Part shown: positions 6,286-19,267 of the stretch, piece after piece | How the letters are laid out: each line of letters opens with the position of its first letter | How positions within the stretch are numbered: the first letter of the stretch is position 1 | The notes under the pieces: model-generated | Databases searched by the model: none | What the model was told of the DNA's origin: nothing | Seen by the model: only the letters and a program-made list of their open reading frames with translations | Translations under genes and position numbers: made by a program | Assembly (NCBI GenBank): GCA_937863415.1 | Contig: CALMFC010000005.1 | Coordinates: 62,001-126,000, forward strand | DNA length: 64,000 nucleotides | Source of the DNA: an uncultured bacterium | GTDB lineage: Bacteria; Patescibacteriota; Saccharimonadia; Saccharimonadales; Saccharimonadaceae | Reading direction: 5' to 3'

Positions 6286-6291
6286 TATAAT
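6286..6291 (+). promoter_or_regulatory. -10 box of tRNA-Ile
   Basis: TATAAT 10 bases before the tRNA 5' end, so the primary transcript would have a leader of only a few bases. Confidence 0.65.
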
Positions 6292-6334
6292 ATCAGAGTC
6301 TGGGGCTGTAGCTCATCGGTTAGAGCAGGCGGCT

Positions 6335-6943
6335 TAAGAAGTTCATTCTAAATTATGTAATGGGTTGTGTATTTCGGCATGACAGTTATGGCAAACGAGG
6401 ATACATTTAGCAACTTCCTCATCTATACGTTCTTGCTTGCGGTTCGATAAGGATCGCAAATCAAGCGGGAAAGATTTATCTTTCGGGACTAGATGATGGA
6501 AAGCTAACGCTGACGAGTTCTTGTTATAGCCGCATATCGAGCATTTACCACCTAATTGCGATAAAAGAGAAAATTTCCTTTTGTGTCCCCTTGCCTGTTG
6601 GGCAGCGTAAGACTGAAGGGAATTGTTCTTGCAGGCTGACGAGCAATACATTGTTTGTTTGCCAGTAAGGGTTTTGCCGCACTTAGTACAGGTTATGCTA
6701 TTTTTCATAACCAAATCATAACACGAATGATCTTACAGGGCTATCTGAGAAGTAATTTTCAGATGATAATCTGTCAAATTCGGGGAAGTCTTCATCGCTG
6801 TAAGCGAAATGATAATCCCGAGCCAAGTCCTGCTTGCGGGAAAGGTGTAGAGACTAGACGGCAGACATCCTACTGTCATTAGAGGATGAAGGGATAGTCC
6901 AGCTCACAAAGTCGAAAGGCGTTGCGAAAGTAATAGTGAGAAG
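6335..6943 (+). ncRNA. Group I self-splicing intron in tRNA-Ile
   Basis: About 609 bases between U33 and C34. The catalytic core lies near the 3' end. TCGGG (6780s) pairs with CCCGA (6816 on) as P4. GACTA in the R element (GTAGAGACTAGACGGC) pairs with TAGTC in the S element (AAGGGATAGTCC) as P7. CATCC/GGATG forms P8 and ATCTGA/TCAGAT forms P2. P1 can form between exon GGCT plus intron TAAGA and TCTTA...GGCT at about 6732-6742, giving the expected U-G pair at the 5' splice site. The last intron base is G6943. The HNH gene lies inside the P1 loop on the other strand. Confidence 0.9.
6343..6708 (-). CDS. HNH homing endonuclease, antisense within the intron
   Basis: About 121 residues from the ATG at 6708 (an in-frame TTG lies at 6714). 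The N-terminal CTKCGKTL...MYCSSACK is a C4 zinc knuckle. The HNH core runs from CSICGY through ALAFHHLVPKDK to CHNCHAEIHNP, with paired CxxC and histidines in place. HNH enzymes of this sort cut intron-less alleles to spread the intron. Unusually, the gene is antisense to the tRNA and intron, so it needs its own promoter. Its stop and start fall just inside the TCATTC/GAATGA stem that closes the P1 loop. Confidence 0.9.
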   Translation of the reverse strand: MKNSITCTKCGKTLTGKQTMYCSSACKNNSLQSYAAQQARGHKRKFSLLSQLGGKCSICGYNKNSSALAFHHLVPKDKSFPLDLRSLSNRKQERIDEEVAKCILVCHNCHAEIHNPLHNLE

Positions 6944-8573
6944 CATAACCACTTGGTAGATGGTTCGATTCCATCCAGCCCCACCATTGATTACTAACAG
7001 CCTCCTCGGAGGCTTTTTGTATCTGTAGGGGTTCAGTTCTGACGCGATCTATTTCGTCTCGAAGTCCTTTAGCGGATTTTGCCACTGGCACAAGCCATTC
7101 ATTAGGGGTGATGGCCAGTTTCCCATTAGTTAATGTTGGGTTCTGACCAATTGCAAGCAAGATGTCTTTCTTACTCGCAATATCACCATCCTTAAACTTT
7201 TCACTTACAGATGTTAGTTTCTCAAAAGTTTCAGTTGCCATTTCATACCAGTTCTTCACGCGATAGTTCGTGCCTGCCCGTTCTTCTTGGAGTTGATTAA
7301 GTTGCGACTTTAACTCAGCACCCTTCGTCCTATATTGTTCATCGTCAATAAGCCCTCGAGTTGCCATATCAAGTAAGCGATCAAGTTGGGTCTGGGTACT
7401 CTCGATGGACTTATCCTGCATTACCTGAATACTATTACGTCCAGTTACCTCTTGTTCAGCGAACTCCCGAAATGCGTCCATCGCCCACTCATAGAGCTCT
7501 GGTACAAGTTCATAACTATTCAATAATTCGTTCAGCTCGTCCCATAATTCAGTCTCACGGATGTAGAAGCTGCGTTGAGCACACCCACGTTTACCTGTGC
7601 AGTGATAGTAGTCATAGCTGGCAATCTTACCTGTAGCAAGTTTCTTTGTTTTACGTTCAGCAGTGATCATACAACCACATAAACCACATCGGATAAGTCC
7701 TCTTAAAGCAAACTGTTTGCGGGTGGTTAGTCGGGGCATACCTTTGCGACCCAATAAAGTTTGTACCTTGTCATATTCCTCTGCGGTAATCATCGCGGGA
7801 AAATCCGCTTTGTAAAACTTTTCCGAGTCATAAGGATCTGGCACCAATCCTGCATAACGAACATTTCGGAAGGAATTATATAAAGTGTTTTTAACTATCG
7901 GCTTTCCCCCTCGACTACCGTGAATAGCAGTCTTGTAACCCCACTCGTCAGTCATAATCGTGTGAATTGATTGCACGCTGTATTCACCAGTAAGAAAGAG
8001 TTCAAACGCTCTGCGCATTAGATAAAACCTCTCAGGATCCTTTTCCACGCGCGCCTCACCACGCCCTGTTAAAGAAGTGCGGACGTTGATGTAGCCTTCG
8101 GGAGCCTGTCCGGTTAACCCACCCATTTGTCGCTTCTTCTCGTTACCGCGTTTCACATCTTTGCTAAGTTTAGCTGAGTAGTACTGGCTCTGCGACATAG
8201 TCATCTGGAGCATCATCATACTTTCGGGAGTTTGGTCAAAATTAAAGCCTGATGCAAATTTAAGATCTTTAATTTTCATCTGCCTGATACGATATGTAAC
8301 TGCGGATGCGTCCACTTCGTTACGGCTTAAGCGGTCGGGGTGCCACGCAATAATTCCTTCTATCTTACCTTCATCAATTCGTTCCAGCATTTCTTTGAAC
8401 TTAGGGCGTTTGTCAGGTTCAAATGCACTTTTACTTTCGGTGTACCACTCAACGATGTTCAGGTCACTGAAGCGCACTCTAATTTGATCCTCTTGTGAAG
8501 AAAGCGAAAGCACTTGCCTCTCCGCTTCTTCGGTAGACTTTCGCATATACACTGCATATCGTAATTTACTCAT
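6879..8573 (-). CDS. Large serine recombinase (integrase)
   Basis: About 564 residues from the ATG at 8573, preceded by GGAGA. The catalytic resolvase domain comes first, with nucleophile Ser13 in YMRKST and the helix R-P-K-F-K-E-M-L. Next is the recombinase domain (APEGYIN onward), a zinc ribbon (RCGLCGCMI ... YYHCTGKRGC) and a C-terminal coiled coil. It would integrate and excise the 9-kb element. The last 45 or so residues are encoded by the tRNA terminator, the tRNA 3' exon and the end of the intron, so the original tail was probably exchanged on integration. Confidence 0.93.
   Translation of the reverse strand: MSKLRYAVYMRKSTEEAERQVLSLSSQEDQIRVRFSDLNIVEWYTESKSAFEPDKRPKFKEMLERIDEGKIEGIIAWHPDRLSRNEVDASAVTYRIRQMKIKDLKFASGFNFDQTPESMMMLQMTMSQSQYYSAKLSKDVKRGNEKKRQMGGLTGQAPEGYINVRTSLTGRGEARVEKDPERFYLMRRAFELFLTGEYSVQSIHTIMTDEWGYKTAIHGSRGGKPIVKNTLYNSFRNVRYAGLVPDPYDSEKFYKADFPAMITAEEYDKVQTLLGRKGMPRLTTRKQFALRGLIRCGLCGCMITAERKTKKLATGKIASYDYYHCTGKRGCAQRSFYIRETELWDELNELLNSYELVPELYEWAMDAFREFAEQEVTGRNSIQVMQDKSIESTQTQLDRLLDMATRGLIDDEQYRTKGAELKSQLNQLQEERAGTNYRVKNWYEMATETFEKLTSVSEKFKDGDIASKKDILLAIGQNPTLTNGKLAITPNEWLVPVAKSAKGLRDEIDRVRTEPLQIQKASEEAVSNQWWGWMESNHLPSGYASHYYFRNAFRLCELDYPFIL
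6999..7018 (+). terminator. Terminator after tRNA-Ile
   Basis: AGCCTCC/GGAGGCT stem with a 2-base loop, then TTTT. The recombinase frame runs through it on the opposite strand. Confidence 0.7.
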
Positions 8574-8589
8574 TATTTCTCCTGACCAA

Positions 8590-8704
8590 AAGGGCGACTC
8601 GGTTGTTGACACAGTCCATAGCAAGAAGCCATTTCCTGATACCGAGCCGCCCTTAAAGGTCGGGAAATAAATACACTTCTTGCGTGTTTATGGATTGTGT
8701 CAAC
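8590..8704. repeat. Crossed inverted repeats (pseudoknot-like) upstream of recombinase
   Basis: Two inverted repeats interleave. 8590-8603 pairs with 8641-8654 (13 of 14). 8605-8628 pairs with 8676-8704 (an 8-bp and a 16-bp block, one mismatch, 5-base bulge at 8684-8688). The order is B', A', B, A, so the two stems cannot nest and would make an H-type pseudoknot in RNA or alternative cruciforms in DNA. The stretch forms the leader of the recombinase gene and the space after the ATPase gene. Confidence 0.75.
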
Positions 8705-8722
8705 GTACTTATTATATCATTA

Positions 8723-10126
8723 TCATTTATCGGGGGTGGGGTCACTATTTCGCTGACCACCAAAGAATAGTGCATATGTTTCATCATCCAACCCATCAAT
8801 TGCGCTGTGCCTACTACCCCCCGAACCTATATTCTTTAGTTGATTCTCCTCTGTTAAAGACTTAGGAAAGATATGTCGTGTCCTTTTATCGCTGAAGTCC
8901 TTAGTTGGCTTTTCCTGTACGATCAACCCGCTGTTCTCAAGTTGAGGTAGGATCTGTTTACGAACTTGTTCGCTATTCATCGGCTTCTCCAGTGCCTTAA
9001 TGTGATAGTTGTTCAGCTCTTGTGGAGTGAGTCCGATTTTGTCGTACTCCATATCCTGTTTCAGTTCGTAGTTTCCTTTTTCGTACTTCTCTAAGTAAGC
9101 TGGCACAATGATGTCTTTGTAGAACCTAAGAACAGCGGGTGGCAAGTTGTATTCCTGACTCTCAGAGATTGCTGACCATAACTCAAAGCCTTCATCTACG
9201 TCCTTTTGTGTCGCATAAATCTTTCCATCTTCGGCAGTTCGGTGCCAAACATTGAGTAAGGTAATCGATTTGATTAACTGTACCAAGTGGCTGATATCTC
9301 GCATATGACGAGGCTTGGCAATTGGGAACAACTCTCGAAATTTGTCATTGACTCCATCTGGATTAGGAACGATAATCTCATTAACCTTTTCATCGCGAAT
9401 AGCGACAATCCTCGACATTAGATCAATTCGTTCCTGCTGTGAATTGAGCCAACCATTGTACTCATCCGCATTTGCACTTCGTCGAGCCTGACTTTGAATA
9501 CCAGCTAGGATCTTTTCGTCAGTTGCTTCGGGGCTTAGTAGGATAGCCCTTGTTGCTTCTTGCTCATCCAAGATCATACCTGCTGAACAGAAAATGGAGG
9601 ATGGATATCCTCGCAAGACAACGTGATCAGCTTGGTTCTTCCCCCCTTTACGGTTAGTGAAGCTATACTTCAAATCGCGTGAGTCATGCGAAAGTAGTGC
9701 TCGAAGTTTCGCCTGTAGTTGAGGGTCGGGTTGTTCATAGAATAGAAGGATTTTTCGTTCAAGTGAAACCAATCGCCCGACTACCTGCTTTTCCTCAGAA
9801 CCTTTCACTTTCTTAAAAATCGGTACTCCAGCTTCATAGAAGAAAGCAGTCGGACTTGCCCCACTCCTCTCAACTTTGTCGTCTGCTGGGAATAACTTCG
9901 CAATCTCAATCGCTAAAAAGCTTTTGCCTGTCGAGCTTGGCGCATTAAGACTCACATTAATCTGACTGCTATCTGTGTATGCAGATAGCATCGCAAGGAA
10001 TACTACAATCTTGTTCGTGTGATCATGCTTGATAGTTAGCGACAACACATCCCTCAAGTCCTCTAGAGACATTTCGAGGTAGAGCTCCATAGGCGCTTGC
10101 TTCAACTTGTTTGGCTTTGTTTCCAT
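8723..10126 (-). CDS. P-loop ATPase with C-terminal winged helix, helicase/primase-like
   Basis: About 467 residues. The second ATG (10126) is preferred because AAAGGAG lies 7 bases before it, whereas the first ATG (10132) sits right at the ribosome site. The Walker A motif is NAPSSTGKS near residue 65 and a probable Walker B is KILLFYEQPD. A central helical part is followed by a winged-helix-like region (MNSEQVRKQILPQLENSGLI). Proteins of this build in plasmids and integrative elements load or drive replication, so a replication role is inferred. The acidic, Gly/Ser-rich tail (IGSGGSRHS onward) looks disordered. Confidence 0.75.
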   Translation of the reverse strand: METKPNKLKQAPMELYLEMSLEDLRDVLSLTIKHDHTNKIVVFLAMLSAYTDSSQINVSLNAPSSTGKSFLAIEIAKLFPADDKVERSGASPTAFFYEAGVPIFKKVKGSEEKQVVGRLVSLERKILLFYEQPDPQLQAKLRALLSHDSRDLKYSFTNRKGGKNQADHVVLRGYPSSIFCSAGMILDEQEATRAILLSPEATDEKILAGIQSQARRSANADEYNGWLNSQQERIDLMSRIVAIRDEKVNEIIVPNPDGVNDKFRELFPIAKPRHMRDISHLVQLIKSITLLNVWHRTAEDGKIYATQKDVDEGFELWSAISESQEYNLPPAVLRFYKDIIVPAYLEKYEKGNYELKQDMEYDKIGLTPQELNNYHIKALEKPMNSEQVRKQILPQLENSGLIVQEKPTKDFSDKRTRHIFPKSLTEENQLKNIGSGGSRHSAIDGLDDETYALFFGGQRNSDPTPDK

Positions 10127-10295
10127 ATTCATTCTCCTTTAAATTATCCGTGTTCTCTGACTGTCCTCCCTTTGCGATTACGAAACGCATTATCGAAATC
10201 CCCGCCTCCTGAGCCTGTTCGTCTGAATAGTTCAAGTCACAATGCTCTTTCAAAAGAGCTTGGAGACGTTCAATACTGGCTTCACTGAATCGCAT
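10023..10295 (-). CDS. Hypothetical protein overlapping the ATPase gene
   Basis: 90 residues. The first half (RFSEASIERLQALLKEHCDLNYSDEQAQEAGISIMRFVIA) is a convincing helical domain. The second half is low in structure and is encoded in another frame over the first 104 bases of the ATPase gene. The start lies 5 bases after the stop of the DUF5659-like gene, with no strong ribosome site, so coupling is likely. Function unknown. Confidence 0.6.
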   Translation of the reverse strand: MRFSEASIERLQALLKEHCDLNYSDEQAQEAGISIMRFVIAKGGQSENTDNLKENEYGNKAKQVEASAYGALPRNVSRGLEGCVVANYQA

Positions 10296-10300
10296 AGAGA

Positions 10301-10546
10301 TTACTTATGTGCGTATATACGACTCTTCAACGTCTTTGTATTTTCAAACAACTGTCTGGCATCTACTCTCAAGCCAATAGACCAGTACTGATCAATTAGC
10401 TGTTCAGTCCAAGTTGTTTTCTTAAACTCGAAATGAGCACGATGCCCCTCGCTGTACGTAATCTTCTGCACAACGTACCCTAAGGTAACTAATGCTGCTG
10501 CAATGCCTAGGTCGTGAACTTTTATCGTTTCTTGCTTCATATTCAT
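10301..10546 (-). CDS. DUF5659-like small protein
   Basis: About 81 residues starting MNMKQETIKVHDLGIAAAL, with GGAGG just before the first of two ATGs (10546, 10540). The pattern D-L-G-x-A-A-x-L-x-x-x-G-Y, F-E-F-K-K-T, a Tyr in the middle and L-K-S-R-I-Y at the end fits DUF5659, a small family found in phages and mobile elements. Role unknown. It lies in the element's replication operon. Confidence 0.75.
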   Translation of the reverse strand: MNMKQETIKVHDLGIAAALVTLGYVVQKITYSEGHRAHFEFKKTTWTEQLIDQYWSIGLRVDARQLFENTKTLKSRIYAHK

Positions 10547-10560
10547 TTTGCCTCCAACTA

Positions 10561-10618
10561 ATAACACTCTCAACTTTACGAGAGTGTATTCTTTCGGTTT
10601 TCGGTAAGATTTCGGTAT
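10561..10618 (-). terminator. Hairpin plus three TTTCGGT repeats
   Basis: ACACTCTC/GAGAGTGT (8 bp, 8-base loop; 10563-10587) follows the winged-helix gene. Next to it TTTCGGT occurs three times (about 10592-10616), on the minus strand as ACCGAAA. The hairpin could end or attenuate the transcript. The short repeats resemble small iterons. Confidence 0.45.
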
Positions 10619-10620
10619 GG

Positions 10621-11724
10621 CTAAGTGTTGATTTTCAGCAACCAACCAACTCCAGGCGTATTGTAAATGCACTTATCGCCAATTACAGCGCGTAGCTTTT
10701 TATGCACCTCTGGAATAAGGCGGCCCAGCTTTGAATTTGAATCCTTACTCCCCCGCTGATAGCTAAATATATTTGCTTCTGGATCAGTAAATACTTCTTT
10801 TGGCCGCAACTCTTCGGGTCGCCTGAGGAAAACCCTCATAACATCCCGCTCTTGCTGCGTCATTCGAATCTCTTCGCCATTATATGTAATGCGTCCGTCT
10901 CTATTCGCGCGCAAGCCTTTATATCCAAATTCTTCTAAATCCTCATCACTGATTGGTTCAGCGGAACGAGACATTAATTCTAATTCTCGTTGGAACTCTT
11001 GATTAGTAATTTCAATATCAACGAAAGCACGTCCTTTGTTTTCCAAATCATAACCCATTTGAAGAATATTGTATTGACCGTTAACTAATTGCGGCGACAG
11101 GACAACTTCCCAAAATGGCGGAATGTAATCATAGAAATTAGTCTTCGTACTACCATAGACGTCTTCGATATTAATATGCGGAACAGATTGACGACTGACG
11201 ACTACGCCTAAGGCGTGATAAAGTTTTGCGGATTGGTGTTTGTAATCATCTGGCTTAAAAGCAGTGATCGTTGAAAGCTTATTTTCTTGCCACTTTTCGA
11301 GGTAATCAGTTAGATCATCGGTTATCTTTTGAACATTTACGGATTTAAGCATAAATCCTTGAGGGTTCGGTGCGACTGCTTCATCAAAGTCAGGCTCTTT
11401 TCCGTAATATGCCACCAGGACTGGAACTGTTTCGAACTCTAAATACCCATCTCTTTCATACTCGTATAGTTTTTGCACCAACTCGTCTTCGGTCTTACTC
11501 CCAAAATAATACCAATGGCTATTTTGCATAATCGGCTTAGCCTTGAGCACATCAGGAAACAGCGAGAGTATCCCCATTAAAAAAACCTTATGTTGATCCC
11601 AATACATTTCCATCTTCATAACCTTCATATTATCCAATATGTCCATCACATTAACAACACTAGCACAGTTAGTAGTCCTAAGTGGTACAATTAAAAAGTC
11701 TAAACCAGTATTAATGTGCCGCAT
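10621..11724 (-). CDS. Winged-helix DNA-binding protein (element regulator or initiator)
   Basis: 367 residues. Residues from about 285 on (MTQQERDVMRVFLRRPEELR...LIPEVHKKLRAVIGDKCIYNTPGVGWLL) show the order of an OmpR-type winged helix: recognition-helix region, R-x-x-L repeats, and a terminal hairpin with G-x-G-W/Y. The N-terminal 270 residues are not recognised and contain no receiver Asp pattern. Start is the ATG at 11724, right beside a 100-bp palindromic region that it may bind. It could be the master regulator or the replication initiator of the element. Confidence 0.75.
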   Translation of the reverse strand: MRHINTGLDFLIVPLRTTNCASVVNVMDILDNMKVMKMEMYWDQHKVFLMGILSLFPDVLKAKPIMQNSHWYYFGSKTEDELVQKLYEYERDGYLEFETVPVLVAYYGKEPDFDEAVAPNPQGFMLKSVNVQKITDDLTDYLEKWQENKLSTITAFKPDDYKHQSAKLYHALGVVVSRQSVPHINIEDVYGSTKTNFYDYIPPFWEVVLSPQLVNGQYNILQMGYDLENKGRAFVDIEITNQEFQRELELMSRSAEPISDEDLEEFGYKGLRANRDGRITYNGEEIRMTQQERDVMRVFLRRPEELRPKEVFTDPEANIFSYQRGSKDSNSKLGRLIPEVHKKLRAVIGDKCIYNTPGVGWLLKINT

Positions 11725-11815
11725 TTCTATGCGTGGTTAAGCCTATAAATCGGCACCACGCAAAGTGATAGGGCTTAAACACTTTATTACTGGTTTAGAC
11801 ACCACGCGTGGTGTC
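11698..11815. promoter_or_regulatory. Nested palindromic operator-like region
   Basis: Arms 11698-11718 and 11780-11800 are inverted repeats matching at 19 of 21 bases. Inside lie GTGGTTAAGCC/GGCTTAAACAC (10 of 11). GCGTGGT at 11731 and ACCACGC at 11755 form a further inverted pair, and the same half-site is repeated back to back in an 18-base perfect palindrome at 11798-11815. It sits between two divergent genes. The last palindrome precedes GTTTTATTTATAAGGAG, so it may also shape the leader of the membrane protein gene. Confidence 0.7.
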
Positions 11816-11836
11816 GTTTTATTTATAAGGAGTTAT

Positions 11837-12313
11837 ATGTCGAACAAAAAATTCAACCCACTTTATTTCCTAGCATTAATACCGATTGGTATGTTTGGAA
11901 TTTTAGGAGCAATCTTCGAATCATTTAGAGGAGAGGCGCTCTCTGGTTTTCTCTGGGGAATAGCAATTGGTTTTGGAATTATGGTAGTAAGCCTTATAGG
12001 CATTTTCGGATGGGAATGGCTGAAGAAACAAATGGAAAAAGGAAAGCTGTTCCCCTACATCACGCTTGCCGTGATAGCCTCTATTATCATCAGCACAATC
12101 TTTGCAACTTCTCTCGGGAAGCCGTCCTGTGAAGAATACGATAATAGTGGCGAACCTTATCAAAGCTGTACTCAGTACGCCGATGATGGTTACGAGGCTA
12201 CAAGTGACCAAAAGTGGGCAAAATTCTGGGGAACTTTACCAGTAACAATCGTGATTACCTCGCTTATAGCCACCCTGGTTCACCACAATATTCATAAGAA
12301 AGGCGAGAAATAA
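11837..12313 (+). CDS. Membrane protein of the element
   Basis: 158 residues from the ATG at 11837, which has AAGGAG 4 bases ahead. The frame is open further upstream but lacks a ribosome site there. Hydrophobic segments lie near residues 9-28, 37-58, 72-93 and 130-150, with a polar stretch holding two cysteines (KPSCEEYDNSGEPYQSC) between the third and fourth, probably outside the cell. Family unknown. It is divergent from the winged-helix gene and shares its palindromic control region. Confidence 0.75.
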   Translation: MSNKKFNPLYFLALIPIGMFGILGAIFESFRGEALSGFLWGIAIGFGIMVVSLIGIFGWEWLKKQMEKGKLFPYITLAVIASIIISTIFATSLGKPSCEEYDNSGEPYQSCTQYADDGYEATSDQKWAKFWGTLPVTIVITSLIATLVHHNIHKKGEK

Positions 12314-12330
12314 GATAGACAAGGTTATAC

Positions 12331-13617
12331 TTAGTAGTCATCAACAGACTGAAGAGGATAAATAGATGGAAGCTCAGATAACTTGTCAAAAATATGCTCA
12401 AGAAGAACCTTCATCTCTATCCAATTAGCTGGATTGACTGAATCACCCGCTAACACCCCCCGGTACTTCTCGCGGAAACTATTTTGGATCGCACGTTTAT
12501 CGAGAACTTCTCCTTGATAGGTCTCAACCTTTTCAATATAACCTTTCCACTGTATAGGTCTAAGAAATCCATTAGAGTCTGACAGTGCGTCTCTGCCAAG
12601 ATAAAGCTCAACGGAGCCTGCACGACCATTAACATCAAGATCAGAGTCGCCTTGCGGACCTTTTGTAGGATAACTATTCAAAAGCTCTGTACTGGGGTAC
12701 TGCGTGATGCAGAAATTATTCGGTAGACGCCGTCTTGCGCTCTGACCAAATGAAGCAATCGCCGATGTGCCAGCAGTGTCGTTATCTAGAATGAATAACA
12801 TATTTTCGGATATTCCAGCAGATGCAAAATTCTTAGCCATTTTCAGTATCGCATCAGCGTTAGTCTCGGGCTTAAAATCTGTTTCGAGAAATCGAACATA
12901 TCTAGCTAGGTATGGGTAAAGAACCTCAATACTTTTCTTGAGAAATTCGACGTCCGTAGTACCTTCCGTAATGATAATAGGTTTACCAATATTCGTATTG
13001 TATGCATCTATAGCAAAGGTAATGTCATCGGAGTATTCGTGTAAATCAGTAAAATCGAAAGTGAGTTCTTTTGCGCCCTCTTCATTCGCCAAGATTATAG
13101 AGAGAACAAATAATGGGTCATCATAATGATGTAGAAGTTCGTTTGCCATTACGAGTACCTTTCTGCTAGCAGTAGTTTGACCGGATACAATGTCGAACCA
13201 TTCATCAAAACTGATTGAACCGAGGTAATCAATCTTAGCTTGAGCTTCCGGAACATAGCTCTCTAAGCCATCGCTAGAGCCCGAGTATCGCTCTACAGCC
13301 CCCCGGTTAGAGTCGAGCATCGCCGACAGATGGTGGTCAAATATACCCTTTATGCCCATTTTTCCATATCCAAGAACCTTCAATTTATCTCTTATTTCCT
13401 TGACCGTTTGTTTTGCGGTGATAAGTGGATAGTCTTCATCGTCAAAGTCGAAATCATCTGAACGAATAATGCCACTCTCGGCTACTAGCCCCCTCGCTTC
13501 GTCTGCTAAGCTCTGGTGGATATCGGCAACTTCAAAAAGCGATAATATTGTGTCCACAGTATCCTTTACTTTATAGATTTGAGACCCTTCAGAATAAACC
13601 GCAAAATCGCATTCCAT
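12331..13617 (-). CDS. HEPN/Toprim N-terminal domain plus Toprim nuclease domain
   Basis: 428 residues. The start (FAVYSEGSQIYKVKDTVDT ... KEIRDKLKVLGYG) fits the HEPN/Toprim N-terminal domain found in bacterial conflict proteins. The C-terminal half is a Toprim domain: IIITEGTTDVEFL with Glu218, then FILDNDTAG with the D-x-D pair at 278-280. Toprim domains of OLD-type and related defence proteins cut DNA or RNA using these metal-binding acids. The start overlaps the stop of the nuclease gene by one base, so the two probably act together against phage (inference). Confidence 0.82.
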   Translation of the reverse strand: MECDFAVYSEGSQIYKVKDTVDTILSLFEVADIHQSLADEARGLVAESGIIRSDDFDFDDEDYPLITAKQTVKEIRDKLKVLGYGKMGIKGIFDHHLSAMLDSNRGAVERYSGSSDGLESYVPEAQAKIDYLGSISFDEWFDIVSGQTTASRKVLVMANELLHHYDDPLFVLSIILANEEGAKELTFDFTDLHEYSDDITFAIDAYNTNIGKPIIITEGTTDVEFLKKSIEVLYPYLARYVRFLETDFKPETNADAILKMAKNFASAGISENMLFILDNDTAGTSAIASFGQSARRRLPNNFCITQYPSTELLNSYPTKGPQGDSDLDVNGRAGSVELYLGRDALSDSNGFLRPIQWKGYIEKVETYQGEVLDKRAIQNSFREKYRGVLAGDSVNPANWIEMKVLLEHIFDKLSELPSIYPLQSVDDY

Positions 13618-14189
13618 CAGACTTTACCTTCGTCTGTATCCTCAACAATTTGCGCGAACGATTCAATTAAGTAGTCGTCGAGCACTAAGACGTTGCCCTT
13701 ATGGATGGCTTTATACATAAAGTCCTTGCCGTGATCATCTGTAACAAGAGAAGATCGAATGTTTATCACCGCGTGACCGTTGTTTGCGCCAACTAGATCA
13801 AATATTTTTTGCGCAGGCAAGACAATGAAGTCTTGGTCATAAGTATTGTGATCCCCCGCATTATCGAGCGATATTTGACCGTTTAAATAATGAACCACGA
13901 ACACCACGTAAGTTGTCTTAACATCGTGCTTTGACAATGTTGATAGATTAACATTCGCCATAAATTTCCCAGAGTCATAACCCTCGATATCTTGGCAAGT
14001 TTTAACTTGGATCTTATAAAAGCGGTTGTCTTTACTGGCGACGATATCAATGCCGTCATCAATGGCACCGTGAAAGACGTTGAAGCCATTTAAGAGAAGC
14101 TTACCAGCTGTAAGATACTCACCCGCTTGACCCAAGTAGTCTTTCGGTAAGTTAATGTCAAAATCGTCCTCTTCAAGCTCTTCTTCCAT
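13617..14189 (-). CDS. PD-(D/E)XK-like nuclease (DUF4365-type)
   Basis: 190 residues. The nuclease signature is visible in order: Glu24 in AGEYLTAGKLLLNGFNV, Asp48 in DDGIDIVA, and QVK at 61-63 in YKIQVKT. DUF4365-like nucleases have this E...D...QxK layout and occur in defence loci. The N-terminus is acidic (EEELEEDDFD). It is the first gene of a two-gene operon with the Toprim protein, and its start faces the divergent AbiJ-like gene across 65 bases. Confidence 0.8.
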   Translation of the reverse strand: MEEELEEDDFDINLPKDYLGQAGEYLTAGKLLLNGFNVFHGAIDDGIDIVASKDNRFYKIQVKTCQDIEGYDSGKFMANVNLSTLSKHDVKTTYVVFVVHYLNGQISLDNAGDHNTYDQDFIVLPAQKIFDLVGANNGHAVINIRSSLVTDDHGKDFMYKAIHKGNVLVLDDYLIESFAQIVEDTDEGKV

Positions 14190-14254
14190 ACGATAATGTT
14201 ACCACTATTCACCAAAGAAGTCCCAGAGGTGGAATTATGGAGTAAAATTGACAT

Positions 14255-15673
14255 ATGATCACAGGTGTTACCCGCAAAGCAATCATAGAGCTTTTCCGTA
14301 CGTTCGATCCCGATCCCACAGGAATCAGGTCTCTTATGAGCTTCACTGCGCAAAAACCGATAGGCATTAAATGGTGGGGCAACTTAGGTGAAATAGAGTT
14401 TCTTGCACGCCTATACGACCTCAAGGCTATGCCTTCTTCTGACAGTAGGTACGCAAACGCTTCCGAAGATATAGGTCAGCACCGTTTCAATAACGACGAT
14501 TGGGAGGACGATTACGTATTCACCGATTCAAGGTTTGAACTCGATACATCAGACACAGCCCTGTTAAGTTTTCTCGCTGAAACTTTACATCCCGAAGTAA
14601 GGACAGATCGAGCTGAAGTAAATGAAATTCGAGCACAATTAAATGACCTTTTACGACCAGACCTATACGAGCTCCAGCAGATTGAAGTTATTTCAGGTAA
14701 ACCTGTATTTGGAGCTGTCGATGTTGAGCCACGAAAAATCACTCCATTGATCCTTAGAGGCGCAATCGCGTATTCACTGTGGCTTAAAGGACCCTCAGCC
14801 CCCAACTTGCCTGCATATCTTGATTCGTTGAAGGCTCCCGCCGCCGAAGCCCCTATAGAGCCAATGAGTAGCAAAAAAGCGTATGTGCAGGAAAGGTTGA
14901 AGCGATTAGAAAAGCCAGAACTAGTTAAACTTGCGCGTGCCGTAATTGAAGATTTTCCCGAAGACGGATTAATCGATTTAATAAACGAAGTAGACAAGAG
15001 GCTTCCGGGAACGCATAAAGGTAGAGCGAAGAATCTGATCTTCGCCTCTAAAGGTCTTAAGCCGGAAATTGTCCTTTCTGACTCAGTAAATAATGACATC
15101 AAAATAACCAAGAATGAAAAAGACACATTGATCTACGAAGAGGACATCGATCCCAATCAAGGGCTAAGCTGGATCGAGCTTGTCGCTTGGTGGATGAAAG
15201 AACATAATATCGATGATCAGGAGCAAGCAAACAGCGAATTGTACAAAAGACTACTCGAGTCCTGCAACGAGCCTGAAAAAATGATAATGAATTCATACGG
15301 ATACATACTGAAGGAGCAAGGCTTTCACTTACCTGCGTTGATACCGCAGGTTTACTTGCACTTCGATCCTTTCACCAAAAAACAAAGAGTCACTCCAAGT
15401 CCTCTAATGAGACAGAGGATGGATTTCCTAATGTTATTACCGAATAGGTCGCGTGCGGTTATCGAACTCGACGGAATAGAGCACTACTCTGACACAGACG
15501 GAAAAGCTAATACCAAGAAGTATGCGGAAATGATGGAAGAAGATCGGAAGATTCGACTGGCGGGTTATGATGTCTACAGATTTGGTGGGCAGGACTTTGT
15601 TAATAAAGTAGAAGCTAGTAAAAAGCTAAGGCGGTTCTTTCAAGGCTTATTGCTAAAGTACGATATCAAGTAG
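14255..15673 (+). CDS. AbiJ-NTD3 domain fused to a Vsr/DUF559-like nuclease
   Basis: 472 residues. Residues 1-170 fit AbiJ-NTD3: ITRKAIIELF, EIEFLARLYDL, IGQHRFNNDDWEDDYVF, AETLHPEVR. A helical middle follows (about 210-260). The C-terminal 95 residues look like a small nuclease: RMDFLMLLP, AVIELDGIEHYSD, then EEDRKIRLAGYDVYRFGG, as in Vsr/DUF559 enzymes where E-x-D and Q/E-x-H bind metal. Lactococcal AbiJ causes abortive infection. Here the effector is a nuclease rather than HEPN. TAAAAT lies 6 bases before the ATG, so the mRNA is probably leaderless. Confidence 0.82.
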   Translation: MITGVTRKAIIELFRTFDPDPTGIRSLMSFTAQKPIGIKWWGNLGEIEFLARLYDLKAMPSSDSRYANASEDIGQHRFNNDDWEDDYVFTDSRFELDTSDTALLSFLAETLHPEVRTDRAEVNEIRAQLNDLLRPDLYELQQIEVISGKPVFGAVDVEPRKITPLILRGAIAYSLWLKGPSAPNLPAYLDSLKAPAAEAPIEPMSSKKAYVQERLKRLEKPELVKLARAVIEDFPEDGLIDLINEVDKRLPGTHKGRAKNLIFASKGLKPEIVLSDSVNNDIKITKNEKDTLIYEEDIDPNQGLSWIELVAWWMKEHNIDDQEQANSELYKRLLESCNEPEKMIMNSYGYILKEQGFHLPALIPQVYLHFDPFTKKQRVTPSPLMRQRMDFLMLLPNRSRAVIELDGIEHYSDTDGKANTKKYAEMMEEDRKIRLAGYDVYRFGGQDFVNKVEASKKLRRFFQGLLLKYDIK

Positions 15674-15680
15674 TTGTTAG

Positions 15681-15962
15681 TTAGTCTTTTGCCCAAGCGG
15701 GTTTGTCATTTGTGTAACCAAAGAAGTAAATCTTTGCGTCAGTTTCATTATCCAAAATCATACAGAATATATCGTTCAAAAACAGTCTGTAGGTTGTGCC
15801 TGCTTTGATACGACTAAAGAATTTAGAGAAGTTAATCTTATGACTCGAAACTTGCTGGTGATGCTTACCGAAGCACTCGTAAGAATTAGCAAACAGATCT
15901 CTGATTTGATCTCCCGTCAGAAACTTCTCTTCATATCCGTTATACACATCTCTTTTAACCAT
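15681..15962 (-). CDS. Hypothetical protein (93 residues)
   Basis: A soluble protein, MVKRDVYNGYEEKFLTGDQI at the start and a strand-rich second half (TTYRLFLNDIFCMILDNETD). Its end faces the AbiJ-like gene across 7 bases. GGGGGT precedes the ATG. No family recognised. It may be the last gene of the element or an immunity/accessory gene of the defence block, on position only. Confidence 0.6.
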   Translation of the reverse strand: MVKRDVYNGYEEKFLTGDQIRDLFANSYECFGKHHQQVSSHKINFSKFFSRIKAGTTYRLFLNDIFCMILDNETDAKIYFFGYTNDKPAWAKD

Positions 15963-16039
15963 ACCCCCATTATCCTACTGTTTTCCATTTTTTTTGAAAA
16001 ACTCTATGTAGATAACCCGATAAGAGCTTGGACGCAGGT

Positions 16040-16125
16040 GGAGGAATACCCCCTCTCCCCCCCTAGTCTCACCTAAATAGGATTGACCCGTGTGTACGAG
16101 CTCTAGTTGCCGCCAGGGGGTCTTT
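16040..16125 (+). terminator. Long-loop inverted repeat with T-run
   Basis: ACCCCCT near 16048 and AGGGGGT near 16115 could pair across about 60 bases, and CTTTTTT follows. A C-rich tract (CTCCCCCCC) lies in the loop. This fits a terminator or a structured short RNA. The 290 bases before the 2H gene otherwise hold only the repeat at 16163 and the hairpin at 16207. Confidence 0.35.
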
Positions 16126-16162
16126 TTTAACTCATAGACACAACTAAACATTCAGGATGGCG

Positions 16163-16191
16163 GTTCTAACTTCGTTCATAATGCCCCACCA
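16163..16191 (+). repeat. 29-bp direct repeat, copy 1
   Basis: Identical over 29 bases to 16815-16843, starting GTTCTAACTTCG and ending GCCCCACCA. The last nine bases are also the 3' end of tRNA-Ile (6978-6986). Like the other copy it is followed at once by a terminator hairpin. It may mark the right end of the integrative element. Confidence 0.8.
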
Positions 16192-16206
16192 GATGAACCA
16201 CTCATG

Positions 16207-16236
16207 ACAGTCAGAACTATTCTGGCTGTTTTTTGT
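16207..16236 (+). terminator. Hairpin after repeat copy 1
   Basis: ACAGTCAGAA / TTCTGGCTGT with a 3-base loop, then TTTTT. Confidence 0.75.
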
Positions 16237-16248
16237 TATTATGAAAAC

Positions 16249-16815
16249 ATGAAATTATCTGTTGTTAGCTATCTGGACTCGGCATCACTTCTAAAGGTGC
16301 GTGAGGTTCAAGGGGCACTCAGCAAGATAACTGGCTCGAAAGCTTCACTCACATCTTGGGATCCTCACATCACTATAGGTGACGGCATCGTGGTCAACGA
16401 CGAGTCGCTTCAAGAATTTCAGAGCGAAATTCAAACTATTGCTTCACCAACCTTAAGTTTCCAGCTAAAGCTCGGCGGCATTGGAACAATGGACAACTTC
16501 AAAGGCGGAAGTGGAGAGAAAGTATCTCCGTTCGTTTTATATTTAGACGTTGATGTTACCGACCAACTACTACAACTTGTAGAAAAAGTTTCACAAATAT
16601 CAAGCGGTTTTGAAAAATGGTATTTTATGCCAAAACCATATGAACCTCATTGCACTCTCGCATTTAGAGACCTCACAGAAGATGGTTTCAAGCTTGGATG
16701 TGAGTATCTTAAAAAACAAGATATCAACCTTATCTCAACAATTGATCACATCGCTCTCGTCGAAAAGCTTGAGAACCTGGATAAAGAGTTGTTGAGGGTC
16801 AATTTAGAAAAATAG
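16249..16815 (+). CDS. 2H phosphoesterase (2'-5' RNA ligase/cyclic phosphodiesterase-like)
   Basis: 188 residues. The two H-x-T motifs of the 2H superfamily are both present: WDPHITIG in the first half and YEPHCTLAF in the second. These histidine pairs cleave or form 2',5' or cyclic phosphodiester bonds in RNA or cyclic nucleotides. The ATG at 16249 is chosen because TATTAT lies 6 bases upstream (leaderless). The stop codon's G is the first base of repeat copy 2, so the gene is framed by two 29-bp repeats. Confidence 0.88.
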   Translation: MKLSVVSYLDSASLLKVREVQGALSKITGSKASLTSWDPHITIGDGIVVNDESLQEFQSEIQTIASPTLSFQLKLGGIGTMDNFKGGSGEKVSPFVLYLDVDVTDQLLQLVEKVSQISSGFEKWYFMPKPYEPHCTLAFRDLTEDGFKLGCEYLKKQDINLISTIDHIALVEKLENLDKELLRVNLEK

Positions 16816-16843
16816 TTCTAACTTCGTTCATAATGCCCCACCA
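16815..16843 (+). repeat. 29-bp direct repeat, copy 2
   Basis: Exact copy of 16163-16191, 652 bases downstream, beginning at the stop codon of the 2H gene. Confidence 0.85.
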
Positions 16844-16844
16844 A

Positions 16845-16879
16845 AGAAAAATATACACTACCAAGGTGTGTATTTTTCT
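16845..16879 (+). terminator. Bidirectional terminator
   Basis: AGAAAAATATACAC / GTGTGTATTTTTCT, 7-base loop, T-rich in both directions. It serves the 2H gene and the facing 95-residue gene. Confidence 0.85.
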
Positions 16880-16893
16880 ATTCAGTCCAAAGT

Positions 16894-17181
16894 TTATTTC
16901 TTTGGTCGATGTCTCAGTGCGCTAAAAACAATAATCGCCAAGGCCACCACGATTACAATCGCAAACAGGTTGCTAAAGAACTGGTCATTACTGTTGTGCT
17001 CTTTGGATTGGATAAATGGCACAATCTTAAACGTATACGACACCGCCTGAAGAAAATCAACTCCGTTCATCATGAACAAGATAATAAAAGTTGTATATAA
17101 CACTAGAAAAAGGACGGTTAACCAGTTCTTACGCGACCACCTAAGGATGGCTTTAGATTTATAATATTTTTGAGGCTTCAT
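16894..17181 (-). CDS. Small membrane protein, two TM segments
   Basis: 95 residues with a basic N-terminus (KPQKYYKSKAILRWSRKNW), TM segments LTVLFLVLYTTFIILFM and LFAIVIVVALAIIVFSAL, and a basic tail (RHRPKK). Both ends should be cytoplasmic. Family not recognised. A degenerate third repeat and a terminator lie upstream on this strand. Confidence 0.75.
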   Translation of the reverse strand: MKPQKYYKSKAILRWSRKNWLTVLFLVLYTTFIILFMMNGVDFLQAVSYTFKIVPFIQSKEHNSNDQFFSNLFAIVIVVALAIIVFSALRHRPKK

Positions 17182-17208
17182 ATTATGAAAATATTATAAC
17201 AGCCAGCC

Positions 17209-17234
17209 CTAGCTTCGTAATCGATGCACCGCCC
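17209..17234 (+). repeat. Degenerate third copy of the 29-bp repeat
   Basis: CTAGCTTCGTAATCGATGCA resembles the CTAACTTCGT...ATGC core of the two exact copies and is likewise followed by CACCGCCC and a hairpin. The similarity is partial and could be chance. Confidence 0.4.
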
Positions 17235-17239
17235 GAATT

Positions 17240-17263
17240 AAAAACAGACCACATCGGGTCTGC
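17240..17263 (-). terminator. Terminator of the 189-residue gene
   Basis: On the minus strand CAGACC pairs with GGTCTG, followed by TTTTTAATT, directly after the stop. Confidence 0.8.
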
Positions 17264-17264
17264 T

Positions 17265-17834
17265 TTATATATCGCGTTTCTTACGATCATTTCTTATTTT
17301 AATTCTAGCTATCGCTTCGTTGAGAGTGTATCCATAGTCTATCATTTTCTTTATCTGGGATTCATCTGATGCTTTGACTAACGATCCAATTGCAACCTCA
17401 TCTTCAGGAGACCGATGCACAACACCAGATAAGCCCAACTCTCTTTCTTGACGCTCGTGATCCTCGATTCGTTGTCGTCGAGCTTTAACCGATGCACTTA
17501 CGGCAGCTTCTTGTCGTCTTTCTATTTCGTCAGGGTCGATAAATCCTTTTGACTCCAGACGTGCCCGAGCAAGATCATAGGTCATGCCAGGCTTCTCTGC
17601 TTCGTCTTCAAGCATTTCATCATACGCCTTTTTGGCTTTTTCACGCTGCTCATCTTCTTTTTCAGACTGTTGCACGTAGTCTTCTAATATAGAATCCTCA
17701 ATTACATCCGAGTTAGTTGGCAGTAAGACCCCGTCTTGCCCTTCGATATTAGTTTCAATTTCGCCATTAACACTAATGGTGTGCTCGTCGAGTCGTTCAG
17801 CCGTACTTAAATCGCGAGTTTCGTTACTTTCCAC
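17265..17834 (-). CDS. Charged helical protein, hypothetical
   Basis: About 189 residues if it starts at the GTG at 17834, which overlaps the preceding gene by 11 bases and has AAAGG 8 bases ahead. The protein is very rich in Glu, Arg and Lys, with long helices (QQSEKEDEQREKAKKAYDEM; ARRQRIEDHERQERELGL) and a C-terminal KKMIDYGYTLNEAIARIKIR helix. No membrane segment. Family unknown. It probably forms a coiled coil with a partner. It is in an operon with the 94-residue gene. Confidence 0.7.
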   Translation of the reverse strand: MESNETRDLSTAERLDEHTISVNGEIETNIEGQDGVLLPTNSDVIEDSILEDYVQQSEKEDEQREKAKKAYDEMLEDEAEKPGMTYDLARARLESKGFIDPDEIERRQEAAVSASVKARRQRIEDHERQERELGLSGVVHRSPEDEVAIGSLVKASDESQIKKMIDYGYTLNEAIARIKIRNDRKKRDI

Positions 17835-18108
17835 GACGAAAAACCTTTCTTGGTATAGGTTTACGAAGCTTCTCGCGATCTCGCCTTGGCGCATTTGAAG
17901 AATTAGCTACAAGCGCATCGAGGGCAAAATCTCCAAACTCATGAACTACATGTGTCTTGGCTACTTCTAAACTGGGTTCGGCTTCGGCATAATTAACTAC
18001 ATCAGGATCACGAACACCCTCCCATACGTCCTTCGGTGGACCGTCTATTAAAGAGCCGTATGGGTCAAAGCTGTCATCGGGTTTTGTTTGTGTTTCGAAG
18101 TTTGTCAT
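17824..18108 (-). CDS. Hypothetical acidic protein (94 residues)
   Basis: Polar and acidic first half (TNFETQTKPDDSFDPYGSLI) and a very basic tail (RRDREKLRKPIPRKVFRRGK). No fold recognised. TATAAT lies 6 bases before the ATG, preceded by TGC, so it is an extended -10 promoter giving a leaderless mRNA. Confidence 0.65.
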   Translation of the reverse strand: MTNFETQTKPDDSFDPYGSLIDGPPKDVWEGVRDPDVVNYAEAEPSLEVAKTHVVHEFGDFALDALVANSSNAPRRDREKLRKPIPRKVFRRGK

Positions 18109-18157
18109 AATTACATTATAGCATAAGCATGAAACTTAGTCAACCGTCTGGTAGGTG

Positions 18158-19267
18158 TTACTCCCAGCGGAAGACTTTGAAGGCGATGGCGTAGATAACT
18201 ATCATCCACGCGCCAATGAGGCCAAGTTGGGGTAAGATATCGATAAATCCTTTGCCCTCAGTAGAGATCAGCCTAATGCCGTCGATTACGGGAGTTAATG
18301 GCAAAAATGCAGAGATATTCTGTAGCCATTCTGGCATCAAGAACCTAGGGAAAAACGTACCGGATAGAAACATCATCGGGAAAACTATGATGTTAGCTAG
18401 CGGCGCGACTTGTCGCTCGTTCTTGGCCCAGCCACCTAACGCTAGTCCGATACCTAGAATCGTAATGATACCAAGAACTATAAATACACCTAACTCAAAC
18501 CAATTACCCACTACCTGCAGGTTGAATATCCAAATAGCAATAATGAACATTATTGCCAAACTGATTAACCCGATAACCGCCTGGCCAATCATGGTTGCCA
18601 GGAAATACTGCCAGACCTTGAGCGGAGTAGTCGAAAGTCGGCGCAAAATACCCATCTTTTTAAGTTCTGGAAAAACGTTTACTGGTCCAAAGATTCCCAT
18701 ACCGATAATCGCAAAGCCCAGTAGTCCGGCGAAGGTGTAGTCAAAAGCCGACAAACTGCGTTCGTTCAACTGCTCTTGCTTGACCGTAAAAGGCACTTCG
18801 TTTTGGACGAATTTAGTATTAATTGCCCCGAACTGAGCATTCAAAATACTAGTCAGGGCTTGGGCTGATTGTTGGTTATTCTGGGTATAGACAATCTGGG
18901 CCTCACCACTGGGGTATTTAGCATCGCCCTTAACCGTACCGAAATCGGCTGGCAAAATAATTGCCGCGTCTAGTTCAGACCTGGTCATCTTTTCTTTGGC
19001 GGCGTCTAGAGTCGTGACCTCTTTATTGACCTTTAGTATCTTGCCGTCTTCGGAACTTTTAACGAAATCTTTGGCAAATGTACTGTCCGATTGGTTAATT
19101 ATTGCAACGTTGAACGAAACGTCACCGCTACCGCTGTTAAGGCCACCAAAAACGAATAGGAAAATTAACGGGAAACCAATGGTAAAGAAAAGCGCCAGGC
19201 GATCCCTAAAAAAGCGTTTGGTATTGATGCGAACAAAAGTTATAACTGTATAAAGTGAACCTTTCAT
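18158..19267 (-). CDS. ABC-2 type exporter permease
   Basis: 369 residues. An N-terminal TM segment near 20-40, an extracytoplasmic domain of about 150 residues (NVAIINQSDSTFAKDFVKS onward), then five TM segments with the conserved PVNVFPELKKMGILRRLSTTP coupling helix and NERQVAPLANIIVFPMMFLSGTFFP near the end. This is the YhgE/DrrB-like ABC-2 layout. The ATPase gene ends 3 bases upstream, so the two make one exporter of drugs, lipids or peptides. The substrate cannot be told. Confidence 0.9.
   Translation of the reverse strand: MKGSLYTVITFVRINTKRFFRDRLALFFTIGFPLIFLFVFGGLNSGSGDVSFNVAIINQSDSTFAKDFVKSSEDGKILKVNKEVTTLDAAKEKMTRSELDAAIILPADFGTVKGDAKYPSGEAQIVYTQNNQQSAQALTSILNAQFGAINTKFVQNEVPFTVKQEQLNERSLSAFDYTFAGLLGFAIIGMGIFGPVNVFPELKKMGILRRLSTTPLKVWQYFLATMIGQAVIGLISLAIMFIIAIWIFNLQVVGNWFELGVFIVLGIITILGIGLALGGWAKNERQVAPLANIIVFPMMFLSGTFFPRFLMPEWLQNISAFLPLTPVIDGIRLISTEGKGFIDILPQLGLIGAWMIVIYAIAFKVFRWE

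Follow-up and report, generated by a model that had tools for sequence, protein, structure and literature searches.

The window analysed here, a stretch of 64,000 nucleotides (C5:62001-126000), belongs to a genome of 847,504 bases in 14 contigs that is rated 99.99% complete. Its tRNA-Ile(CAU) gene is interrupted in the anticodon loop by a group I intron, and the P1 loop of the intron holds a gene for an HNH endonuclease on the opposite strand. The locus is made up of the following features.

6286-6291, plus strand: TATAAT, candidate -10 element for the tRNA gene, 10 nt before the 5' exon starts (from the sequence)
6302-6334, plus strand: tRNA-Ile(CAU) 5' exon, last base U33 (ARAGORN on the joined exons; sequence)
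6331-6334, plus strand: P1 exon strand GGCU, with U6334 in a wobble pair with G6739 (pairing analysis)
6335-6943, plus strand: group I intron, 609 nt, last base G6943 (RF00028, ARAGORN, sequence)
6339-6348, plus strand: 5' strand of the P1 extension (AAG U TCATTC), of which 6343-6345 doubles as the minus-strand HNH stop (sequence, pairing)
6343-6708, minus strand: HNH endonuclease gene, 121 aa, in the P1 loop; ATG at 6708, TGA at 6345-6343, alternative start TTG at 6714
6715-6720, minus strand: TATGAT, weak putative -10-like hexamer that precedes the HNH ATG by 6 nt
6724-6914, plus strand: catalytic core (RF00028)
6725-6734, plus strand: 3' strand of the P1 extension (GAATGA U CUU) (sequence, pairing)
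6738-6742, plus strand: internal guide sequence GGGCU (pairing; 12 of 13 CAU introns)
6944-6986, plus strand: tRNA 3' exon, from C34 onward, with encoded CCA at 6984-6986 (ARAGORN, sequence)
6999-7018, plus strand: intrinsic terminator of the tRNA gene (terminator scan)

The group I intron proposed in the original prediction passes a covariance-model check, since the Rfam group I intron family (RF00028) matches 6724-6914 on the plus strand with 73.6 bits (gathering score 50, E 8.9e-17), its sole match genome-wide. The intron lies between tRNA positions 33 and 34 (U33/C34). In P1, the exon strand GGCU pairs with GGCU at 6739-6742, so that U6334.G6739 is at the splice site, followed by U6335.G6738; a P1 U-G pair and a terminal G (here G6943) had both been named in the original prediction. 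Beyond a 3x3 internal loop, P1 continues in register through AAG/CUU and TCATTC (6343-6348) with GAATGA (6725-6730), the stem that had been said to close the loop around the HNH gene. The observed pairing sum of P1 was reached in 10 of 2000 shuffles of the exon letters. The GGGCU guide recurs in the CAU-tRNA introns compared, with viral L163 (GGUUG against the exon CGACU) as the exception, and all 14 of 14 CAU introns end in G.

Splicing at these junctions would restore a full tRNA, as predicted: ARAGORN calls the joined segments 6302-6334 and 6944-6986 as a clean 76-nt tRNA(CAT), and the anticodon loop is broken when the 5' junction is moved by one or two bases. The automatic ARAGORN call on the unspliced gene, tRNA-Leu(UAA), was discarded in view of the short variable loop and of the CAU junction, which yields a 7-nt anticodon loop with an intron ending in G. 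The genome has only two other CAU tRNAs, at window positions 744 and 5158, both Met-like, and it carries a TilS gene (C5:60074-60634). The interrupted gene thus encodes a CAU tRNA besides two Met tRNAs in a TilS-bearing genome, which identifies it as tRNA-Ile2(CAU), the host named at the outset.

An intact second tRNA-Ile(CAU), which the original prediction had named as the mark of a dead copy here, was searched for, and the genome has none. Since the sole gene of this kind is the interrupted one and TilS is present, it is not a dead spare copy, and as a sole copy it would presumably have to splice. A tRNA pseudogene or relic with an intron that does not splice is therefore extremely improbable. 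The anticodon stem does contain a C29.A41 mismatch, which would suit a relic, but the intronless relatives of the family have an identical anticodon arm. The spliced tRNA differs at 2 of 76 positions from the uninterrupted tRNA of a family locus (L365), as one compensatory acceptor pair, and this compensation, the encoded CCA and the intact core all speak for a working gene.

The intron is optional within the genus. A pattern search finds it in five of 28 genus genomes (G000, G186, G200, G209 and G218), while 21 have an uninterrupted tRNA-Ile(CAU) and none has both forms; the two genomes with neither (G215 and G229) are incomplete. A presence in 5 of 28 against an absence in 21 of 28 is the distribution expected of a mobile intron.

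The antisense HNH gene is likewise present as predicted, as a 121-aa minus-strand ORF whose protein matches the phrog_2255 profile (HNH endonuclease) with E 1.9e-21. The longest open frame of the insert, 122 codons, was reached in none of 500 dinucleotide shuffles (maximum 121, mean 63). The protein has an N-terminal CxxC...CxxxC finger and an HNH domain, in which H71 H72, N108 and H110 of the motif are visible in the alignment. Its stop codon sits within the P1 stem, and its C-terminal HNLE is encoded by a P1 strand that the HNH-less intron of G218 (L011) also has. With 18.4 bits the protein stays below the cut-off of Pfam HNH (PF01844), 21.4; two relatives, L014 and L085, score 21.4 and 23.9. 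The AlphaFold model has a pLDDT of 87.7. Its fold matches are weak (best Z 4.8), most rows among the matches listed being HNH nucleases or Cas9/IscB. A Foldseek search with the model gave nothing at E 0.001 (best E 0.1), and no relative among solved structures was found by sequence at E 0.1. No PD-(D/E)XK family is reported for the protein, its best nuclease matches being HNH families. Compared with the G200 gene, dN/dS is 0.11 (NG86) or 0.26 (YN00), with codon-position differences of 23/12/49; by these ratios the frame is under purifying selection. A peripheral loop, here P1, that houses an open and conserved endonuclease gene is a characteristic of mobile introns.

The antisense arrangement is recurrent. 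All eight HNH genes found in CAU-tRNA introns are antisense, six of them cellular and two on viral contigs. Besides the full frame of the window, they comprise the gene of G200 (L014, identical in DNA to L021; 79% amino acid identity), that of G511 (L085; 68%), that of G186 (L009), where the contig starts within the HNH and the 5' exon is unseen, and the viral L163 and L260. The two remaining genes are decayed, one having in-frame stops (L022) and the other, in G436 (L334), being truncated and lacking its N-terminal half. The other seven of the 15 CAU introns, in G218, G209, G321, G416, G453, G363 and G344, have no HNH gene. In the last of these genomes (L074), the CAU-intron lineage occupies an initiator-like CAU tRNA at the identical position. 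Viral L163 is part of a 98.6-kb contig with a tRNA cluster, and a TilS-like PP-loop gene lies directly downstream of its tRNA (TIGR02432 is the best match, with 84.8 bits, which is below its cut-off of 93.6). In L085, group I introns occur in two adjacent tRNA genes, tRNA-Phe without an HNH gene and tRNA-Ile with the antisense HNH. Related group I introns are also seen in tRNA-Phe(GAA) in 13 phylum genomes, with anticodon loops read by eye (L071, L077, L078, L083-L085, L088, L089 and L091-L095).

When 379 phylum genomes were searched with a profile, HNH relatives appeared in 38, and 30 loci were examined. At 24 of these the HNH gene lies within a tRNA intron, 21 times in sense and three times antisense. 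The three antisense loci are those of the window, G511 and G436, all CAU by exon reading. The hosts of the 21 sense genes are called by ARAGORN as Asn(GUU) (13) and Thr(UGU) (8); the latter calls are read here as tRNA-Asn with a slid junction, from inspection of L010 only. At five further loci the HNH gene stands beside a same-strand tRNA, and at one (L333) there is neither a tRNA nor an intron within 700 nt. The intron pattern occurs in at least 26 of the 379 genomes, and it misses introns with a longer spacer between the pattern halves, such as that in the tRNA-Ile of G511.

Free-standing relatives also occur in viral sequences, where 29 of 80 loci were examined for neighbours; plasmid sequences gave no match. 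Of these viral HNHs, the eight nearest to that of the window are L251-L257 and L259. Seven of the eight adjoin a CAU tRNA, six on the strand opposite to the tRNA and L259 on the same strand, and L257 has no tRNA within 700 nt. In the viral contig of L251 (IMGVR_UViG_3300033183_000299), a CAU tRNA is followed by an antisense HNH gene and then by a displaced 3' half of a tRNA that has the same acceptor strand. The displaced half has a local score of 15.5, which none of 200 shuffles attained. Displaced tRNA halves were considered as a general rule and rejected, being significant at one of seven loci, L251 alone; an apparent tRNA 5' half at L253 was equalled by 32 of 200 shuffles and is not significant. 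Remoter HNH relatives, L247, L249 and L250, occur in the tRNA clusters of Shigella phage Henu12, Salmonella phage FelixO1 and Synechococcus phage S-WAM2, where each shares a few bases with the beginning of a tRNA gene.

In a tree of the HNH proteins (68 rows, 114 columns), built from homologues gathered by similarity to the window HNH and therefore favouring its own clade, 16 sequences form a CAU-associated group with 91/85 support, while many forks are unresolved. This group consists of eight CAU-intron HNHs, six that adjoin CAU tRNAs, L257 and L333; L024, L256, L066 and L341, which are duplicates, near-duplicates or fragments, were left out. Orientation requires two changes on this tree. In the intron tree (45 rows, without L007, which the extraction pattern missed), the 15 CAU introns form one clade with 100/99 support, within which HNH-plus, HNH-less and decayed introns (L022 and L334) interleave. 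Such interleaving is what a homing cycle would be expected to leave behind.

The preferred reading, to which a probability of about 0.7 is assigned, is that the sole tRNA-Ile(CAU) gene of this genome would carry a mobile group I intron whose antisense HNH protein acts as a homing endonuclease for the anticodon region of CAU tRNA genes. The pre-tRNA would splice itself, P1 setting the junction at U33 and G6943 the 3' junction, and the HNH protein would be made from the opposite strand of the P1 loop. The protein would then cut or nick the uninterrupted anticodon arm of CAU tRNA genes (CU^CAUAA), and repair of the cut would copy the intron in, leaving an interrupted gene that is immune. The anticodon arm is the probable target because the intron is inserted there and because free-standing relatives lie at CAU tRNAs. 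Such a cycle fits the optional occurrence of the intron, the selection on the HNH frame, the decayed copies and the introns that lack an HNH gene. Counting against the homing reading are the Pfam score below the cut-off, the weak fold matches, the lack of a promoter in the scan described below and the occurrence of L333 without a tRNA.

The decayed copies, together with the same Pfam score and promoter result, also suit an intron that still splices after its mobility has been lost, with the HNH gene as a recently inactive passenger. Selection averaged over a branch is compatible with such a very recent loss. The window copy, on the other hand, keeps a full frame with its C..C and HH/N/H residues and a low dN/dS against G200, which makes a passenger unlikely. 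More tentatively, and with a little less than even chances, the homing reading may be extended to a single lineage of HNH proteins that bear a zinc finger at the N-terminus and would be specific, in Patescibacteria-like genomes as well as in phages, for the anticodon arm of CAU tRNA genes, both Ile2 and Met. This lineage would persist in its own target either as an always-antisense intron gene or free-standing beside the tRNA. The displaced 3' half at L251 suggests an element that restored the gene it broke, and the antisense orientation could have been inherited from the free-standing state, giving the HNH gene its own message instead of the unspliced pre-tRNA.

A sigma-70 consensus scan detected no promoter on the minus strand of the window from which such a message could start. 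A -10-like hexamer stands 6 nt before the HNH ATG at four of five cellular loci and 8 nt before it in L022, and in G511 it is a perfect TATAAT; in shuffles of single loci, P ranges from 0.035 to 0.48 and mostly falls short of significance. By eye, the P1 loop of the HNH-less intron (G218, L011) has a similar stretch, so the hexamer may simply reflect P1 pairing. A message started from this hexamer would have almost no leader, and it would be complementary to the P1 loop, the 5' strand of P1 and the 5' exon beyond, and not to the core.

The original prediction had proposed that expression of the nuclease could interfere with splicing, and this hypothesis is somewhat weakened, because a message starting at the hexamer would spare the ribozyme core. 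In its full form, the antisense message would pair with the P1 strand and the 5' exon, and nuclease expression would lower the level of mature tRNA-Ile. The HNH gene is indeed antisense to the 5' strand of P1 and has its stop codon in that stem, and the scan shows no terminator on the minus strand ahead of the tRNA 5' exon; antisense interference is discussed for the antisense homing endonuclease genes (HEGs) of Didymium rDNA in the available text of PMC9548176. The promoter scan, the short reach of a message begun at the ATG and the seven of 15 CAU introns without HNH speak against such regulation, as the P1 loop tolerates the absence of the gene and regulation by its message is not needed. 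Interference of this kind is judged distinctly unlikely.

Downstream of the tRNA lies an island of about 11.1 kb (window 7018-18158, ends approximate), bounded on the far side by an ABC-2-like permease (18158-19267, named by eye), a homologue of which is near the tRNA in G218. The island includes genes for a serine recombinase, an AbiJ_NTD3 protein (14255-15673) and a 2'-5' RNA ligase-like protein, as well as a weak PD-(D/E)XK match at 13617-14189. The open frame of the serine recombinase (6879-8624, minus strand) extends across the terminator and the 3' exon of the tRNA gene and ends at a stop codon within the intron, as if an element had inserted beside the tRNA. The HNH gene could in principle be expressed by read-through from this co-directional recombinase and serve the island, since the recombinase lies on the same strand, its frame enters the intron and the scan found no minus-strand terminator between the two genes. 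Such an origin is very unlikely, because antisense HNH genes are also present in G200, G511, G186, L022 and the viral contigs, and because a different sequence follows the tRNA in G200.

Several known systems share parts of this arrangement. The gene of the nuclease I-Ssp6803I has sense orientation. The intron that encodes this nuclease belongs, like that of the window, to group I and interrupts a CAU tRNA. As described in the accessible text of PMC1995217, I-Ssp6803I is the nuclease of the tRNA-fMet(CAU) group I intron of Synechocystis PCC 6803 and is reported to be specific for the tRNA anticodon region; it differs from the window enzyme, which is an HNH protein and not PD-(D/E)XK, and whose host is tRNA-Ile and not tRNA-fMet. 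Should the anticodon arm of CAU tRNAs be what the HNH protein recognises, a second, unrelated enzyme family would act on this type of site. The Azoarcus intron also shares its class (group I) and its host, tRNA-Ile(CAU), with the window intron. That intron is about 205 nt long, is not known to carry a homing endonuclease gene and is inserted after the anticodon U, not between U33 and C34. It is named in PMC3984707, a 2014 review of bacterial group I introns whose available text does not contain the words 'antisense' and 'opposite strand'; nor does 'antisense' occur in the available text of PMC11270868 and PMC11835236. The available text of PMC8172020 notes group I introns in tRNAs of circularised CPR genomes, without detail.

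In myxomycetes, rDNA introns such as L2066 of Didymium squamulosum and S956-2 of D. iridis carry antisense HEGs, and P1 is among the HEG insertion sites, according to the available text of PMC9548176 and PMC3679873. They share with the window intron a HEG that is antisense to the ribozyme, and differ, as far as that text describes them, in being systems of eukaryotic rDNA with a His-Cys box nuclease, spliceosomal introns and polyadenylation. In the literature searched by title and abstract opening, no paper was recognised as describing a HEG that is antisense to a group I intron of a bacterial tRNA. The segB gene of phage T4 lies between tRNA genes and encodes a free-standing homing endonuclease of the GIY-YIG type (PMC2988022, available text). 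It acts in a phage tRNA cluster by homing, as is proposed for the window HNH, but, as described there, it belongs to another nuclease family, is not intron-borne and has a tRNA intergenic target.

In this reduced genome, a single-copy essential tRNA would depend on a ribozyme in which a strand of P1 is also the stop codon of an antisense nuclease. The tRNA-Asn(GUU) introns have a homologous HNH domain that likewise lies between the 5' exon and the core, but their HNH proteins are encoded in sense, lack the N-terminal finger and fall elsewhere in the HNH tree. The CAU introns with an antisense HNH and the Asn introns with a sense HNH together make it testable how the HEGs of structural-RNA introns are expressed without harm to the host RNA, which is a long-standing question.
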